A DNA stretch of 6,883 bases, from positions 1 through 6,883 of the forward strand of contig PUOB01000369.1 in NCBI GenBank assembly GCA_003551985.1. Reading direction: 5' to 3'. Shown in pieces: positions 1 through 6,326 of this stretch (positions within the stretch are counted from its first letter, which is position 1; every line of letters starts with the position of its first letter). The notes below the pieces were generated by a model, which saw only the letters and a list, made by a program, of their open reading frames with translations, was not told where the DNA came from and did not search any database. This DNA comes from Desulfobacteraceae bacterium. GTDB lineage: Bacteria > Desulfobacterota > Desulfobacteria > Desulfobacterales > Desulfosalsimonadaceae. Made by a program: the position numbers and the translations under genes.

Positions 1-942
1 TCCCACGCGCCCTTTTGGCATACCGGGAGCAGTACCAGCGTAAAGTATTATCATATCATTGGGGCCGCGATGATCGCGGTTCTGTTCGGACTGTATCAAT
101 ACGGAATGCCGGCCCTGGCCGTGATCGCCCTGTCCGTCGGCAGCGCCATGATCTGGGAATCTATCTTTAACTACCTCGCAAAACGTCCCAACACCATTTA
201 TGACGGAAACGCCGCCCTGATAGGGCTTCTGTTCGCCATGCTGCTGCCTGCGGTAACGCCCTGGTGGGTGGTTATAACGGGAACATTCGTGGCGGTCATC
301 ATTGGCAAGCAAATATACGGTGGCCTCGGGGCCAATCCATTCAACCCGGTGATCGTTGCGTATGCCATGCTGCTGATCTCCTGGCCGGTCCACCTTGACT
401 ACAATGCCGCCCTGGTTGACTACGTTTTTCCATTCGAATCCTTCTATCCCATGGCGGCGGCCAAGTTTCAGGGTGCCGCTGGGGTTGAGAATTTCACCAT
501 CACGGGTTTGCTCCTGGGCCAGCAGGTCGGCGGCATCGGCACGGGATTCGGCATCGGGTTGATTATCGGCGGCATTTATCTGATCGCAAGAGGATTTATC
601 CGGTGGGAAATCACGGTTGCTTTTCTGGCGGGCATTTTTGTCACCGCCTACCTGTTCAACCTCAGCAACCCGGAACTTTACGCCAGCCCCGGTTTTCACC
701 TGTTCAGTGGCATGTCCCTGATCGGCGCCATATTCCTGGCAACGGAAGATTCATCATCACCCGTTAATTTTGTTCCGATGCTTATCTACGGCGCCCTTGG
801 CGGCTTCCTCACCGTGATGATCAGAAATATGGGGGTTCATGTTGACGGGGTGATTTTTGCGGTACTGATCATAAGCCTGGTCAATCCGATAGTCGATAAA
901 ATACGGCCCAAAGCCAAGAGAAGGGTTATGAACTATGCGTGA
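1..942 (+). CDS. rnfD: RnfD, membrane subunit of the Rnf complex (5' partial)
   Basis: This is an integral membrane subunit of the Rnf ferredoxin:NAD+ oxidoreductase, homologous to NqrB of Na+-NQR. The frame is open from base 1; the first ATG (70) is internal, because the residues before it (SHAPFWHTGSSTS) match the usual RnfD start region 'SSPHIRS..ST', so probably only about ten residues are missing. 313 residues are visible. Recognisable family blocks are PWWVVITGTFVAVIIGKQIYG, GGLGANPFNP, the HLFSG-LIGAIFLATED segment and GVHVDGVIFAVLIISLVNPIVD near the C-terminus. Most of the protein is hydrophobic helices. Family members usually carry a covalently bound FMN on the Thr of a D-G-x-(S/T)-x-A-T-P-L motif, placed between the NPFNP block and the G-rich helix; here that region reads ESFYPMAAAK (436-465), with no such Thr. 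The stop overlaps the rnfG start. The identification is secure; the loss of the flavin site is an observation from family knowledge. Confidence 0.95.
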   Translation, partial: SHAPFWHTGSSTSVKYYHIIGAAMIAVLFGLYQYGMPALAVIALSVGSAMIWESIFNYLAKRPNTIYDGNAALIGLLFAMLLPAVTPWWVVITGTFVAVIIGKQIYGGLGANPFNPVIVAYAMLLISWPVHLDYNAALVDYVFPFESFYPMAAAKFQGAAGVENFTITGLLLGQQVGGIGTGFGIGLIIGGIYLIARGFIRWEITVAFLAGIFVTAYLFNLSNPELYASPGFHLFSGMSLIGAIFLATEDSSSPVNFVPMLIYGALGGFLTVMIRNMGVHVDGVIFAVLIISLVNPIVDKIRPKAKRRVMNYA

Positions 943-1534
943 AATGATTAGAATGGTTGCCACTTTGACAATTCTGGCTGCGGTTGCCGGCGGATTGCTC
1001 GCTACGGTAAAAACAACGACCGCGGAGCGAATTGAGCAGGCGGTGCTTGAGTATGTTCAAGGGCCCGCTGTCATGTCAATCATGGAGAATGTCACCAATG
1101 ATCCCCTGGAAGATCGGTTCGCCATTGAAATTGACGCGGAAGAAAGGGATTTCTTTGTCGGCATGGTGGACGGCGTACCAAAACTGGTCGCTTTTGAAGG
1201 GAAGGCGTCCGGTTACGGCGGCGACCTTGGGGTGATGGTTGGGATCAATGTCGAGACCGGCGAGATCGTGGGCATCGGCCTTACGACCCACGCGGAAACA
1301 CCGGGGGTCGGTTCCCGCGCGGAAACGGACATCCGTTTTTTGCAATCTTTTGTCGGGCTGCCGGTCGTGGCCGCGGACAAGATCCGAATAGGGGAAGATG
1401 ACGGTGAGATCGCCAACATCGGCGGCGCCACGGTCACCGCCCGCGCCGTCTGCACGGCGGTTCGCCGGGTCGGCAATATGTATGAGAATTATGAGTCCGA
1501 AATTAAAACGAAGGTCGCGGACTTTTCCGGATAG
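935..1534 (+). CDS. rnfG: RnfG, FMN-binding-domain subunit of the Rnf complex
   Basis: This is the extracytoplasmic, membrane-anchored electron-transfer subunit, related to NqrC. It has 199 residues, with an N-terminal membrane helix at about residues 4-25 followed by the soluble FMN-binding fold. The family signature HAETPGVGSR is at residues 119-128. The covalent FMN site lies near residue 166, within NIGGATVTAR; the usual form is D-A-(I/L)-S-G-A-T-x-T-S. The acceptor Thr166 is kept, but the Asp of the motif is Ala160 and the Ser is Gly163. The chosen ATG overlaps the end of rnfD by 8 bp, has AGAAGGG nine bases upstream, and implies translational coupling. A second in-frame ATG at 944 is a less likely start. 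The function as RnfG is clear from fold motifs and position; whether it is flavinylated normally by ApbE is uncertain. Confidence 0.94.
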   Translation: MREMIRMVATLTILAAVAGGLLATVKTTTAERIEQAVLEYVQGPAVMSIMENVTNDPLEDRFAIEIDAEERDFFVGMVDGVPKLVAFEGKASGYGGDLGVMVGINVETGEIVGIGLTTHAETPGVGSRAETDIRFLQSFVGLPVVAADKIRIGEDDGEIANIGGATVTARAVCTAVRRVGNMYENYESEIKTKVADFSG

Positions 1535-2225: not shown

Positions 2226-2801
2226 ATGGGCGACTTCACAGTAGTGATCATAAGCAGCATATTTATCAACAATATCATCCTGGCCCAGTATCTGGGGGCA
2301 TGCCCGTTTGTGGGGACTTCCAAAAAAATGGAAACCGCCACCGGCATGGCCGGCGCCGTCATTTTTGTACTGACGCTGGCCGGAGTCATCACCTGGATCA
2401 TCAACACCTATTTCCTTGTTGCACTCGAAATCGAGTTTTTACGGACGATCGCGTTTATTATGGTGATTGCCTCGCTGGTTCAGTTTGTGGAGATGTTTCT
2501 CAAAAAAAGCATTCCTTCGCTTTACGCCGGTCTTGGTATTTTTCTGCCGTTGATAACAACCAATTGTGCGGTTATGGGGGTTTGCCTCCTCAACGTGCAG
2601 GATGAGCTGTCATTTATCATGGCCCTTGTTACATCCATTGCCTATGCGCTAGGGTTCGGGCTTGCGCTGATTCTCTTTGCGGGAGTGCGCGAGCGCGTCA
2701 ACCTGGGCCGGACGCCCGGGCCGCTCAAAGACACTTCCATCGGTCTTGTCACCGCCGGTATGCTGGCAATGGCCTTTATCGGGTTTCAGGGAATGGTTTA
2801 A
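2226..2801 (+). CDS. rnfA: RnfA, membrane subunit of the Rnf complex
   Basis: This is an integral membrane subunit of 191 residues, typical length, homologous to NqrE. It pairs with RnfE as an inverted-topology partner. The hallmarks are FINNIILAQYLGACPFVG (residues 13-30), Cys26 and Cys114 (LITTNCAVMG) for the shared intramembrane [2Fe-2S] centre, SIPSLYAGLGIFLPLITTN, and the C-terminal AFIGFQGM. AGGAGA at 2214-2219 precedes the ATG at good spacing. An 84-bp gap separates it from rnfE and a 101-bp gap from rnfB; both are larger than the other gaps in the operon. The first contains nothing I can name. No residue expected in the family is visibly missing. Confidence 0.97.
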   Translation: MGDFTVVIISSIFINNIILAQYLGACPFVGTSKKMETATGMAGAVIFVLTLAGVITWIINTYFLVALEIEFLRTIAFIMVIASLVQFVEMFLKKSIPSLYAGLGIFLPLITTNCAVMGVCLLNVQDELSFIMALVTSIAYALGFGLALILFAGVRERVNLGRTPGPLKDTSIGLVTAGMLAMAFIGFQGMV

Positions 2802-2902: not shown

Positions 2903-4978
2903 GTGCTTGCATCGATTCTGTTTACACTCGGACTGGGGGGGGCTTGCGGTGCTGTCTTGAGTGTCGCGTCAAAAGTTTTTTATGTATACGAGGACCCGCG
3001 TATTGCTGAAGTGGAAAATCTTACAGCCGGTGCGAATTGCGGCGGCTGCGGATATCCCGGGTGCTCCGGGGCGGCTGAAGCCGTTGTTGCCGGAAAAGCG
3101 CCGCCCTCGGTTTGCATTCTTGTCGGTCCTGAAAATGTGGCCGCCATTGCCGAGATCGTCGGCGGCGAGGCCGGGACCGCCGAAGCCCGGAAGGCTTTCA
3201 ACGATTGCCTTGGCGGCGACCGGGCAACCGACCGTTTTATTTACCAAGGGGTCAATACGTGCAATGCGCTTGCATCCCTGTACGGCGGGAAAAGGGACTG
3301 CATGATCGGCTGCCTGGGGTACGGGGACTGTATCCGGGCCTGTCAGTTCAACGCGATTGATATGGCCCCGGAAGGGTATCCGGTCGTGGATCTTGAACGG
3401 TGCGTCGGATGCGGCGCCTGTGAGGCGGTCTGCCCCAAGACCATTATTGATGTGAGTCCCATGTCGGGCCGCCTGATGCACCTGAATACCGATGAGGACC
3501 CGCTTGCCCCCTGCCAGCAGACCTGTCCCGCGGAAATCGACATTCCCCGTTATATCGACCACATCCGAAAGGGAGAATACGAGGACGCCGTGAATACGAT
3601 TCGGGAGCGAAACCCGCTTCTGTTGACCTGCGGACGGGTTTGCCCGCATCCGTGCGAAGAAATGTGCCGCCGCGCCATTGAAGACGACCCCGTCTCCATC
3701 AACCAGTTAAAGCGCTTCGTTGCCGATATTGAAATGAACGCCGGCAAGCGTTACCCCATACCCTGCAATCCGGATACCGGCAAAAGCGTTGCCATTATCG
3801 GCGGCGGGCCGGCCGGTCTCACAGCGGCCTATTTTCTTCGCCGTATGGGACATCATCCCACCATATTCGAGGCAATGCCGGGCCTCGGCGGGATGCTTCG
3901 CTACGGCATTCCCGAATACCGGCTTCCCAAGAAGGTGTTGGATTGGGAGATTGACGGTATTTTGAACCTGGGCATCGATTACCGCGTCAATGCCGAAATG
4001 GGGTTTGATTTCGACCTGGCGTCCCTGATCGGCGGCGGATTCGACGCTGTTTTTTTCGGGGTAGGCGCCTGGAACGACTATAATCTCGGCATTCCCGGGG
4101 AAGACCTTGAAGGATGCTTCACCGGGATCAAGTTTCTTGCGCAGGTGGGGAAAAACGAAATCCCCGATATCGGCAACCGGGCCGCGGTTATCGGCGGGGG
4201 CAACACCGCCATAGATTGTGCCCGAACACTGGTTCGCATGGGTCTTGAAAAGGTTTATCTGGTCTACCGCCGAACCCGCAAGGAGATGCCCGCCAACGAG
4301 GTTGAAATTGTGGCCGCCGGCCACGAGGGGATCGAGTTTATTTTTCTTGCCGCCCCCAACAAGGTTCTGGAGGATGAAAACGGGCGGGTCAAGGGGCTCG
4401 AGTACCTCAAGATGGAGCTTGGGGAGCCGGATGCCAGCGGCAGACGACGGCCCGTGCCCGTTGAAGGCTCCGAGACCGTTTTGGACATCGACACGATTGT
4501 TACCGCGATCGGACAGAATCCGGATCTTTCCTTTAAAAAAGAAGGCACGCGCCTGGATGAACTCAAAATCACCCGCTGGAACACTTTTGATGTGAATCCG
4601 GAAACCTGCCAGACCAATATTCCTTATATTTTTGCGGCCGGCGATTCCCAGACCGGGCCGGCCACCGTGGTGGAGGCCATTGGCGGCGCCCGCCTGGCAG
4701 CCCGTTCAATGGATCAATTCCTGCGCGGCAAGCCCGTGGTGGGAGAGCCCAAGGCGCTTTTGGGCCAAAAAAAGATTGAAGAATCCCTTTTTGACAAGGT
4801 TGAGGGGGTTCAAAAAACCAAACGGGTTGAAATGCCCGAGCTGCCTGTGAAAGAAAGAATTACCAACTATGACGAAGTTGATCTGGTCATCAGCGAACCG
4901 GATGCACTGCGCGAAGCCAACCGCTGCCTTAATTGCTGCAGGCTGTGCTATGATCCGGATACGATTAAGTTGAATTAA
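2903..4978 (+). CDS. rnfB: RnfB fused to a GltD/NfnB-type FAD-NAD(P)H oxidoreductase
   Basis: This is the ferredoxin-facing iron-sulfur subunit of Rnf, 691 residues, against roughly 190-330 for ordinary RnfB. Domains in order: N-terminal membrane helix (about 3-22); the Fes domain with C46, C49, C54 and C71; a bacterial ferredoxin pair with C133/C137/C143/C147 and C167/C170/C173/C177; then a complete glutamate-synthase-small-subunit-like module. The latter has cysteines C204, C208, C243, C247, C251 and C255 (CGRVCPHPCEEMC), an FAD-binding GGGPAG at 300-305, GGMLRYGIPEYRLP at 329-342, an NAD(P)-binding GGGNTAID at 431-438 followed by YRRTRKEMPA (455-464, suggesting NADPH), and FAAGDSQTGPATVVEAI for the flavin. 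The tail ends in C675, C678, C679 and C682. The reading frame is continuous with no break between modules. The GTG start has AAGGGG six bases upstream and gives the expected RnfB anchor. It probably receives or passes electrons between a pyridine nucleotide, ferredoxin and the membrane complex; the direction is inferred only. Confidence 0.93.
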   Translation: MLASILFTLGLGGACGAVLSVASKVFYVYEDPRIAEVENLTAGANCGGCGYPGCSGAAEAVVAGKAPPSVCILVGPENVAAIAEIVGGEAGTAEARKAFNDCLGGDRATDRFIYQGVNTCNALASLYGGKRDCMIGCLGYGDCIRACQFNAIDMAPEGYPVVDLERCVGCGACEAVCPKTIIDVSPMSGRLMHLNTDEDPLAPCQQTCPAEIDIPRYIDHIRKGEYEDAVNTIRERNPLLLTCGRVCPHPCEEMCRRAIEDDPVSINQLKRFVADIEMNAGKRYPIPCNPDTGKSVAIIGGGPAGLTAAYFLRRMGHHPTIFEAMPGLGGMLRYGIPEYRLPKKVLDWEIDGILNLGIDYRVNAEMGFDFDLASLIGGGFDAVFFGVGAWNDYNLGIPGEDLEGCFTGIKFLAQVGKNEIPDIGNRAAVIGGGNTAIDCARTLVRMGLEKVYLVYRRTRKEMPANEVEIVAAGHEGIEFIFLAAPNKVLEDENGRVKGLEYLKMELGEPDASGRRRPVPVEGSETVLDIDTIVTAIGQNPDLSFKKEGTRLDELKITRWNTFDVNPETCQTNIPYIFAAGDSQTGPATVVEAIGGARLAARSMDQFLRGKPVVGEPKALLGQKKIEESLFDKVEGVQKTKRVEMPELPVKERITNYDEVDLVISEPDALREANRCLNCCRLCYDPDTIKLN

Positions 4979-4990
4979 GGTGAATTAAGT
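4971..4990. repeat. Tandem 10-bp direct repeat across the rnfB stop
   Basis: TGAATTAAGG and TGAATTAAGT lie back to back. The first copy contains the rnfB stop codon (4976-4978), and a weaker third copy (ACGATTAAGT, 4961-4970) precedes them inside the gene. The array runs directly into the heptamer inverted repeat. Confidence 0.7.
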
Positions 4991-5064
4991 TGTAGGTTGT
5001 AAGTTGTGATAGTCTCGTAAAAAGTCGGTTACAACCTACAACCTACAACCTACAACTTACAACC
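4989..5064. repeat. Inverted repeat built from tandem heptamers (GTTGTAG / ACAACCT)
   Basis: The left arm 4989-5009 reads GTTGTAG, GTTGTAA, GTTGTGA. The right arm 5031-5064 reads ACAACCT three times, then ACAACTT and ACAACC. The left arm pairs perfectly over 13 bp with 5052-5064, and 18 of 19 positions with 5031-5049 or 5038-5056, so the hairpin can form in several registers offset by seven bases. The loop contains the word CTCGTAAAAAGTCG. It lies immediately after the rnf operon and could act as a transcript-end structure, though there is no T run directly after it. It resembles a small dispersed intergenic repeat; family membership cannot be judged from one copy. Confidence 0.8.
5014..5027 (+). 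repeat. 14-bp word CTCGTAAAAAGTCG, copy 1
   Basis: This lies in the loop between the two heptamer arms. Its exact reverse complement recurs at 6523-6536 in the next intergenic region, which suggests a dispersed intergenic element. Confidence 0.65.
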
Positions 5065-5098
5065 GCCCCCCCTACCTTCCTCCTGTATGTCAAGACCC

Positions 5099-5242: not shown

Positions 5243-5257
5243 AAATACTATGGTTTT

Positions 5258-5290
5258 CCATTGCCGGGATATCAATGGGCTGTTTTTTTT
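5258..5290 (+). terminator. Attenuator-like hairpin with T8 in the sigma factor leader
   Basis: CCATTG (5258-5263) pairs with CAATGG (5273-5278) around a 9-nt loop, and eight T follow at 5283-5290. It lies only 31 bases before the gene start, so if active it would act as an attenuator. A competing small hairpin ATGG/CCAT (5250-5253/5258-5261) uses the same left arm. The stem is short, so function is uncertain. Confidence 0.35.
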
Positions 5291-5293
5291 CGA

Positions 5294-5319
5294 TCACTTT
5301 CCATCTTCCAGGGAGGCGA
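5294..5319 (+). promoter_or_regulatory. Imperfect helix covering the Shine-Dalgarno (RNA-thermometer-like)
   Basis: CTTTCC (5297-5302) pairs with the ribosome binding site GGGAGG (5311-5316) through four Watson-Crick and two G-U pairs, with an 8-nt loop. Below one A-C mismatch, T5294-A5319 and C5295-G5318 continue the helix. A weak, wobble-rich stem with a U run opposite the Shine-Dalgarno is the general form of fourU/ROSE-type thermosensors, and the gene is a heat-shock-family sigma factor. The thermosensing role is inference. Confidence 0.4.
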
Positions 5320-5321
5320 AC

Positions 5322-6326
5322 ATGTTTAACGATCCGTTTCAGACCCCGACCGGAACGACAAAACCCAATCACCTTGAAGCCCGCCAGGAAAAGGATGCTC
5401 AATCCACCAGCGAACGACCCGCATCCCGGGTTGAAGCAGTTGCAACGCAGAAGCGTAAAAAACAATATGATCCGGTTCAGCAATACATGGCCGACATAAG
5501 AAAGCATCGACTGGTTACCCGGGAAGAGGAGAGGGCCCTTGCCAGAAGGATTCAGTTGTATGACGATACGGCGGCATTTCATGAGCTGGTGAATGCAAAT
5601 CTTCGGCTGGTCGTTAAAATCGCTCTGAAATTTCAAAGGTTCTGGAGCCGTAATCTGCTTGACCTGATCCAGGAAGGAAACGTCGGACTCATCCATGCAG
5701 TCCGAAAATATGATCCCGATCGGAATGTGAAGTTTTCTTATTATGCGTCTTTTTGGATAAAGGCGTATATAATGAAATATATACAGGACAACTGGCGGAT
5801 GGTGAAGGTGGTTACCACCGAGGGCCAGAGAAAACTGTTTTACAAGCTGAAGCAGGAAAGAAGAAAGCTGAGCAATGAAGGTATCGAACCCAGTATGACA
5901 ACGCTTTCCGAAAAGTGCGGGGTTAAGGAGCAGGAAATCATTGAGATGGACCAACGGCTCCAGAATTGGGACGTCTCGCTTGATGCCCCGGTCCGCGAGG
6001 ATTCCGACACCGACCGGATCGATATGCTCAGCATGGATGAACCGTCCCTTGAAGAACAGTATTCCGATAAGGAATCGGACGGGCTTATCAGGAGCAAACT
6101 TGGTGAGTTTCGGAAAACCATATGCAAAAGGGAGCGGGAGATCCTCGATTATCGGATCTACTCGGAAAATCCAATGACCCTGCAGTCTCTCGGAGACCGG
6201 TTGAGCCTCTCCCGGGAAAGGGTGCGGCAGCTTGAAAAACACATCATTGGCGAGTTAAGGCAGTTTCTGGTCACCCAGATCCATGATTTTGATGCACTTT
6301 CGGAAAGGCCAAGGCTCCCGGTATAA
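5322..6326 (+). CDS. RpoH-like (sigma-32 family) RNA polymerase sigma factor
   Basis: This is a sigma-70-family factor of 334 residues. Region 1.2 is at about 50-80 (YDPVQQYMADIRKHRLVTRE). Region 2 spans about 86-162, with LVNANLRLVVKIALKF, the core-binding DLIQEGNVGLIHAV (114-127) and the -10-recognising FSYYASFWIKAYI...NWRMVKV. Directly after comes QRKLFYKLK (169-177), matching the 'RpoH box' QRKLFFNLR of sigma-32 proteins. Region 4.2 with its helix-turn-helix is TLQSLGDRLSLSRERVRQLE (286-305). About 48 polar residues precede region 1.2, longer than in E. coli RpoH (284 aa in total). The ATG at 5322 has GGGAGG five bases upstream; an in-frame ATG at 5250 lies within the leader hairpins and lacks a good binding site. 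It likely directs a heat-shock or other stress regulon; the exact regulon is unknown, and deltaproteobacteria-like genomes often have more than one such paralogue. Confidence 0.9.
   Translation: MFNDPFQTPTGTTKPNHLEARQEKDAQSTSERPASRVEAVATQKRKKQYDPVQQYMADIRKHRLVTREEERALARRIQLYDDTAAFHELVNANLRLVVKIALKFQRFWSRNLLDLIQEGNVGLIHAVRKYDPDRNVKFSYYASFWIKAYIMKYIQDNWRMVKVVTTEGQRKLFYKLKQERRKLSNEGIEPSMTTLSEKCGVKEQEIIEMDQRLQNWDVSLDAPVREDSDTDRIDMLSMDEPSLEEQYSDKESDGLIRSKLGEFRKTICKREREILDYRIYSENPMTLQSLGDRLSLSRERVRQLEKHIIGELRQFLVTQIHDFDALSERPRLPV

Follow-up and report, generated by a model that had tools for sequence, protein, structure and literature searches.

A fused RnfB and the apparent loss of return-branch flavin motifs in an Rnf2-type operon of a Desulfobacteraceae bacterium and in its relatives

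An enlarged RnfB is a feature of the Rnf2 type of complex. In Desulfobacula toluolica Tol2, this protein has about 700 amino acids and carries NAD+-binding sites, and RnfC is without NADH and SLBB domains (PMC5109826); an unidentified electron acceptor or donor of RnfC was suggested for this strain. Desulfococcus multivorans DSM 2059 has both the Rnf1 and the Rnf2 type, with a cytochrome encoded in its rnf2 cluster (PMC5109826), and Rnf2 has since been assigned to the core genome of the Desulfobacteraceae and found in abundance in each of six strains (PMC11887813, 2025). The subject of the present analysis is an operon of this type in a stretch of 6,883 nucleotides from a Desulfobacteraceae bacterium (contig PUOB01000369.1), the whole of which is called the window. 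By profile scans, it consists of an rnfDGEAB operon with a fused rnfB, then a sigma factor gene. The 691-residue RnfB resembles the published proteins of about 700 residues with a nucleotide fold (PMC5109826, PMC11887813), and operons of relatives resemble Rnf2, described as having an RnfC without NADH domain and a small cytochrome encoded in the cluster, in that their RnfC is without the FMN-NADH motif and most of them encode a cytochrome. An earlier note on this DNA could not tell whether the architecture had been described; it is already published, as Rnf2 (PMC5109826).

The canonical Rnf of Acetobacterium woodii and Clostridium tetanomorphum has the RnfA/E cysteines, the RnfG threonine and the RnfB anchor and Fes domain in common with this operon, but differs in having flavins in RnfD, FMN and NADH on RnfC and an RnfB without a flavin module (PMC11889175, PMC12174285). 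The pumping path in A. woodii runs from RnfB through RnfA/E to RnfG (PMC11889175). Other systems are alike in one half. The Rnf of Methanosarcina acetivorans has a multihaem cytochrome in its operon, a proposed exit at RnfG and no reaction with NAD or NADP (PMC4023990). Na+-NQR has its nucleotide site on an anchored subunit in the RnfB position, and its RnfC homologue, NqrA, is without cofactors (PMC12174285, PMC4014512); NqrF, however, is a [2Fe-2S]/FAD reductase from a different family, the acceptor is quinone, and NqrB retains the FMN threonine (PMC11334425). NqrB/RnfD-like flavinylation complexes have a membrane subunit without the flavinylation site, and a transfer from NAD(P)H to an extracytosolic acceptor has been proposed for them (PMC11334425), but they consist of two subunits only and have no RnfA/E. 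Between them, they offer precedents for both halves of the mechanism considered here. We know of no flavin module in the RnfB of M. acetivorans.

How might electrons pass through a complex with the fused RnfB? The reading preferred here, to which we give an even chance, is that the Rnf2-type pump would couple ion transport to electron transfer as an NAD(P)H/ferredoxin:cytochrome c oxidoreductase, with its nucleotide site on RnfB and with electrons exiting RnfG to a cytochrome. NAD(P)H would reduce the FAD of a module in RnfB that resembles StnC of the Sporomusa ovata Stn complex, and the flow from there would be linear, without bifurcation, through the two [4Fe-4S] clusters of the module to the RnfB ferredoxin dicluster, where ferredoxin would also exchange electrons. 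The dicluster would deliver to the Fes cluster, this to the [2Fe-2S] of RnfA/E in what would be the pumping step, and RnfA/E to the periplasmic FMN of RnfG, from which a multihaem cytochrome c encoded directly before rnfC would receive the electrons. Such an oxidoreductase would be reversible in principle, and it is no less plausible that the ion gradient would push electrons the other way, out of the cytochrome and into NADP+ or ferredoxin. Which cofactors are bound, whether NADPH is preferred, and by which path, to which exit and in which direction the electrons run are what we infer; domains, motifs lost or retained and gene neighbours are read directly from the DNA, those of RnfC and the cytochrome in relatives only.

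A bolder form of the proposal, held tentatively and rather more apt to fail than to hold, is that Rnf2 might not be a ferredoxin:NAD+ oxidoreductase at all. It would be a pump from NAD(P)H and ferredoxin to a periplasmic cytochrome, with the RnfD and RnfC return flavins gone and the input rebuilt on RnfB; it would join the cytoplasmic pools to the c3 cytochrome network of sulfate reducers and would be convergent with Nqr at the input and with the Methanosarcina Rnf at the output. The second fused RnfB paralogues near HydBC-like genes and rseC would then serve one and the same core as interchangeable input modules. Should periplasmic cytochromes and not NAD+ receive the electrons of the pump, Rnf2 schemes that link the ferredoxin, NADH and NADP pools need revision. 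A large share of the carbon oxidation in marine sediments is due to Desulfobacteraceae, and in Desulfovibrio the route of NAD(P)H electrons to sulfate reduction has been termed a long-standing mystery.

Flavin motifs of RnfC and RnfD

The window starts inside rnfD, and rnfC thus falls outside it. RnfC was examined in operons of relatives, with classes set by an RnfC2 query and motifs. In 82 such operons, including those of the close relatives L002 and L004, no RnfC adjoining a fused RnfB has the GxGGAxFP FMN-NADH motif; PF01512 nonetheless scores above cut-off in one of the three RnfC proteins scanned (L028). The loss indicates a nucleotide site relocated to RnfB, as published for Rnf2, and not duplicated. 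A second pyridine-nucleotide port in one complex, as the earlier note had envisaged, is not supported in view of the lost RnfC motif and was rejected as the best reading. The premise of that idea holds: RnfB bears a full FAD/NAD(P)H module, and its nucleotide motifs are intact in the window.

Is the step preceding RnfC preserved? In RnfD, the threonine to which FMN is covalently bound is part of a [ST]x[AS]T motif. The window RnfD (1..942, + strand, 5' end cut off; PF03116 at 3.5e-82, TIGR01946 above cut-off) reads VFPFESFYPM where canonical RnfD resembles DAVSSATPL, with a tyrosine at the aligned threonine column. The motif is missing from the RnfD of the window and of 82/82 fused operons; of 25 operons with an FMN-type RnfC, 24 have it. 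The aligned column is threonine in 5 of 82 fused operons versus all 25 with an FMN-type RnfC.

The sites further upstream on the path are conserved. The [2Fe-2S] ligand positions of RnfA (C26/C114; gene 2226..2801, +, TIGR01943 above cut-off) and RnfE (C27/C110; 1548..2141, +, TIGR01948 above cut-off) and the FMN threonine T166 of the periplasmic flavoprotein RnfG (GGATVT; 935..1534, +, PF04205, with NF045876 RnfG_DVU2794 above cut-off) are all retained in the window and in 81 of 81 fused operons. With these sites kept and the RnfD and RnfC motifs lost, the part that pumps in A. woodii is retained and the flavins of the return branch apparently are not.

Operons with a small RnfB show that the fusion is not needed for such losses, as the RnfC motif is missing in nine of 36 of them, six of the nine also lacking the RnfD motif by regular expression. 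The regular-expression counts of the RnfD motif made in this survey contain mis-scored rows (L201 in the wrong frame, L106 and L111 truncated, L102 a variant), and the aligned column is the more reliable count. Four loci (L232-L235) have a small RnfB, yet both RnfC and RnfD are without FMN motifs. An FMN-less RnfC and a small RnfB occur together with a soluble ferredoxin-NfnB protein in three genomes (G142, G113 and G080); a general pairing of this kind is not claimed, as the phylum-sample search described below gave no protein of this sort for G044, where RnfC is also FMN-less. The open-licence Rnf2 literature searched, covered for part of the main texts, makes no mention of RnfD flavinylation loss, of the StnC-type lysine or of the decayed sister clade, both described below.

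A multihaem cytochrome beside rnfC in relatives

Where do the electrons go? Of 77 fused operons of relatives with enough flanking sequence, 66 encode a protein with four to eight CXXCH motifs whose gene ends no more than 500 bp before rnfC; seven short-flank operons (five fused, two canonical) were left out of this test. The two cytochromes scanned show likeness to tetrahaem c3 and TmcA. Among canonical operons, an operon-strand protein with at least three CXXCH was found in the 2.2-7.5 kb upstream of rnfC in 0/21, two of which (L272 and L273) are possibly near-copies, and in the operon region in 0/22; a cytochrome within 500 bp upstream of rnfC, a place often occupied by rnfB in canonical operons, was found in 0/28. 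The canonical operons are mostly the 30 best-scoring RnfC loci, which biases these comparisons to the most typical. Operons with a small RnfB and an FMN-less RnfC have a cytochrome in two of seven by the 500-bp test and in three of nine over the operon region. The return branch (RnfD FMN, RnfC FMN, NAD+) looks broken, and the cytochrome is therefore the most likely recipient of the electrons of RnfG.

Several points weigh against an exit at RnfG. The cytochrome is not universal: 11 of the 77 fused operons are without one in the 500-bp test, and while one of these (L049) has a cytochrome farther away, the other ten, which belong mostly to deeper branches, lack one even within 3 kb. Fused operons share ancestry, so the counts are not independent events. 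The dhcA cytochrome of the D. alaskensis rnf operon is largely dispensable, although that Rnf may be of another type. RnfD could still bind FMN or riboflavin non-covalently. The RnfB part of the predicted structure is of low confidence, with most of residues 91-140 at pLDDT below 50. The strongest argument is in RnfC itself, which keeps both of its [4Fe-4S] motifs, hard to explain for a subunit that is off the path.

These observations leave room for a path in which electrons still cross RnfD by riboflavin or a loosely bound flavin, continue through the [4Fe-4S] pair of RnfC to some cytoplasmic protein, and have the cytochrome as an auxiliary. We consider this unlikely, though a serious alternative, since RnfD, which precedes RnfC on the path, lacks its flavinylation motif in 82/82, and the cytochrome association is strong (66/77 fused versus 0/21 canonical). 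A second alternative keeps Rnf2 in effect a ferredoxin:NAD(P) oxidoreductase, a membrane-bound ferredoxin-NADP reductase in which ferredoxin and nucleotide would both react at RnfB, with a weak or absent link to ion pumping. The ferredoxin dicluster and the FAD/NAD(P) module do share one chain, and there are anchorless relatives, five proteins of 595-602 amino acids (L205, L206, L207, L210 and L211) with the ferredoxin domain and the NfnB module and no anchor or Fes domain, which nest within the intact fused clade of the tree. This scheme, however, leaves the retention of the RnfA/E cysteines and the RnfG threonine (81/81) unexplained, as it does the kept RnfB anchor and Fes domain, and is distinctly improbable.

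The FAD-NAD(P)H module on RnfB

The fused rnfB occupies 2903..4978 on the + strand, in a frame that has a GTG start, is open throughout and encodes 691 amino acids. Four Pfam domains score above their gathering thresholds: FeS (43-72), Fer4_7 (136-180, a 4Fe-4S dicluster), Fer4_20 (202-280) and Pyr_redox_2 (295-594). PDB sequence matches divide along the same lines, residues 5-191 matching RnfB chains and about 199-686 matching NfnL, StnC and GltD chains. The RnfB part (about residues 1-188; 2903..3466; PF04060 and PF12838) has a predicted N-terminal helix at residues 2-26, Fes cysteines C46/C49/C54/C71 and dicluster cysteines C133-C147 and C167-C177. The single uninterrupted frame joining RnfB to a FAD/NAD(P)H oxidoreductase, as described in the earlier note, is thus confirmed, as are its domains.

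The remainder is a GltD/StnC-type module. Its Fer4_20 region (about residues 200-280; 3500..3742; PF14691 and alignment to StnC and NfnL) has the conserved cluster residues C204, C208, C247, C251, C255 and K270, and its Rossmann folds for FAD and NAD(P) (about residues 295-594; 3785..4684; PF07992) have intact motifs: GGGPAG at 300-305, GIPEYRL with R340, GGGNTA at 431-436 and YRRTR at 455-459. Conservation was counted over 130 aligned proteins, including the five anchorless ones and L150, whose kinship is doubtful. Cluster cysteines are kept in at least 123; the lower values in the Fes cluster come mostly from gaps in the anchorless forms. Six cysteines had been assigned to the N-terminal region of the module; one of them, C243, is poorly kept (110/130), and three more conserved cysteines, C675/C678/C682 (CLNCCRLC, 4925..4948), lie at the C-terminal end, kept in 129. 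The arginines of YRRTR we take to bind the 2'-phosphate of NADPH. The proposed NADPH preference is consistent with this intact motif, which is no proof, as it is common across the GltD-type family.

Does the module bifurcate electrons? K270 and R340, the equivalent of NfnB R201, are present in 130/130. StnC (8oh5_C) and subunit A of NfnABC (9bov_A, 9n5u_A) have the same GltD-like module and proximal-cluster lysine, and in them, as in fused RnfB, the cysteine segment follows the module; neither has an RnfB part, and StnC works with StnAB, a HydBC-like bifurcating module. NfnB/NfnL (5jca_L, 4ylf_B) are alike in the FAD/NADPH folds and the Fer4_20 region and differ in having glutamate for lysine, the cysteine segment at the N-terminal and not the C-terminal end, and an NfnA partner. 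The FAD-proximal cluster of StnC is held by three cysteines and K170, where NfnB has a glutamate, and its FAD is described as non-bifurcating, with NADPH electrons running linearly along the clusters (PMC10482914). Thus the comparison with NfnAB made in the earlier note holds for the module family and fails at this ligand, and the module does not look bifurcating. Bifurcation of NADPH electrons as in NfnB, giving a bifurcating Rnf input and a second nucleotide port, could draw on the conserved FAD and NAD(P) motifs and on R340, but is very improbable in view of the lysine in 130/130, the absence of an NfnA-like gene among the window genes (all rnf, plus one sigma factor, in profile scans) and the RnfC motif gone in 82/82; as a best reading it was rejected on the StnC-type lysine and the non-bifurcating FAD of StnC. 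The fused chain differs from StnC-type chains in that the domain scan found no NuoG-like domains in it.

A chance join or mis-assembly of two adjacent genes has a negligible probability and was ruled out: six genomes searched for NfnB/GltD-like paralogues have many of them, but a near-identical protein from another source has 97% identity at 100% query coverage, and the same junction recurs in 80/80 kept loci and, across a 297-genome sample of the phylum, in 38 genomes (five of the 38 having only the anchorless form, of about 600 residues). The kept loci, L001-L080, are the best 80 among 215 stretches of genomic DNA with a gene for a relative, selected by likeness to the window; 79 of their fusions have at least 686 amino acids, and L071 ends early, at 604. 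The phylum-sample matches spanning the junction (E <= 1e-35) number 49, with no inner stops. The protein search scored 7995 candidates, 7991 of which matched; the 120 matches listed each have 94-100% coverage and at least 65% identity.

Paralogues and neighbouring genes

Fused proteins fall into an intact clade, with the window inside it, and a sister clade. The branch between the two has SH-aLRT 100 in a tree of 77 rows, which includes only every third of the intact-clade loci among L001-L080 and excludes L150. In the sister clade the FAD motif is altered (e.g. GGGVEG) and the NAD(P) motifs are largely decayed; loss of nucleotide binding, which would have undercut the original proposal, may thus apply to these relatives, but the window motifs are intact. 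Nine of 25 sister-clade genes are near rnf genes and 16 are away, and of these 16, seven adjoin rseC and four a same-strand HydB/NuoF-like gene. At L224 and L226, and also L155 and L220, a decayed-motif paralogue away from rnf stands beside HydB/NuoF-like and RseC genes, in some cases joined by NuoE and DRTGG, the order at L226 being NuoE, DRTGG, NuoF, fused RnfB, RseC. Such a paralogue is possibly an alternative membrane input module. Seven loci (L188, L189, L191-L193, L203 and L204) have an intact-clade fused RnfB with no rnf gene in the 16-17 kb fetched around it.

In Desulfovibrionaceae, rnfB has been reported as lost, with a FAD-dependent oxidoreductase in its place (PMC11434368). Several fused RnfBs carry the NCBI name 'FAD-dependent oxidoreductase'; the replacement may thus be a fused RnfB of which only the flavin half was recognised.

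Gene order varies in two of the kept loci: in L065 (7980-16425) the fused rnfB is 5' of rnfC, and in L064 (3075-7206) a 1.7-kb gap separates rnfG and rnfE. An Rfam search of the window gave no match, and a promoter and terminator scan gave scores close to the shuffled mean. Downstream of the fused rnfB and ahead of the gene for the sigma factor, positions 4985-5065 form an imperfect hairpin with tandem acaacct-like units. The sigma factor gene itself (5250-6326), 3' of the operon, is RpoH-like, with scores under the RpoH model cut-offs, and the same gene is also found downstream in the close relatives L001, L002, L004 and L005.
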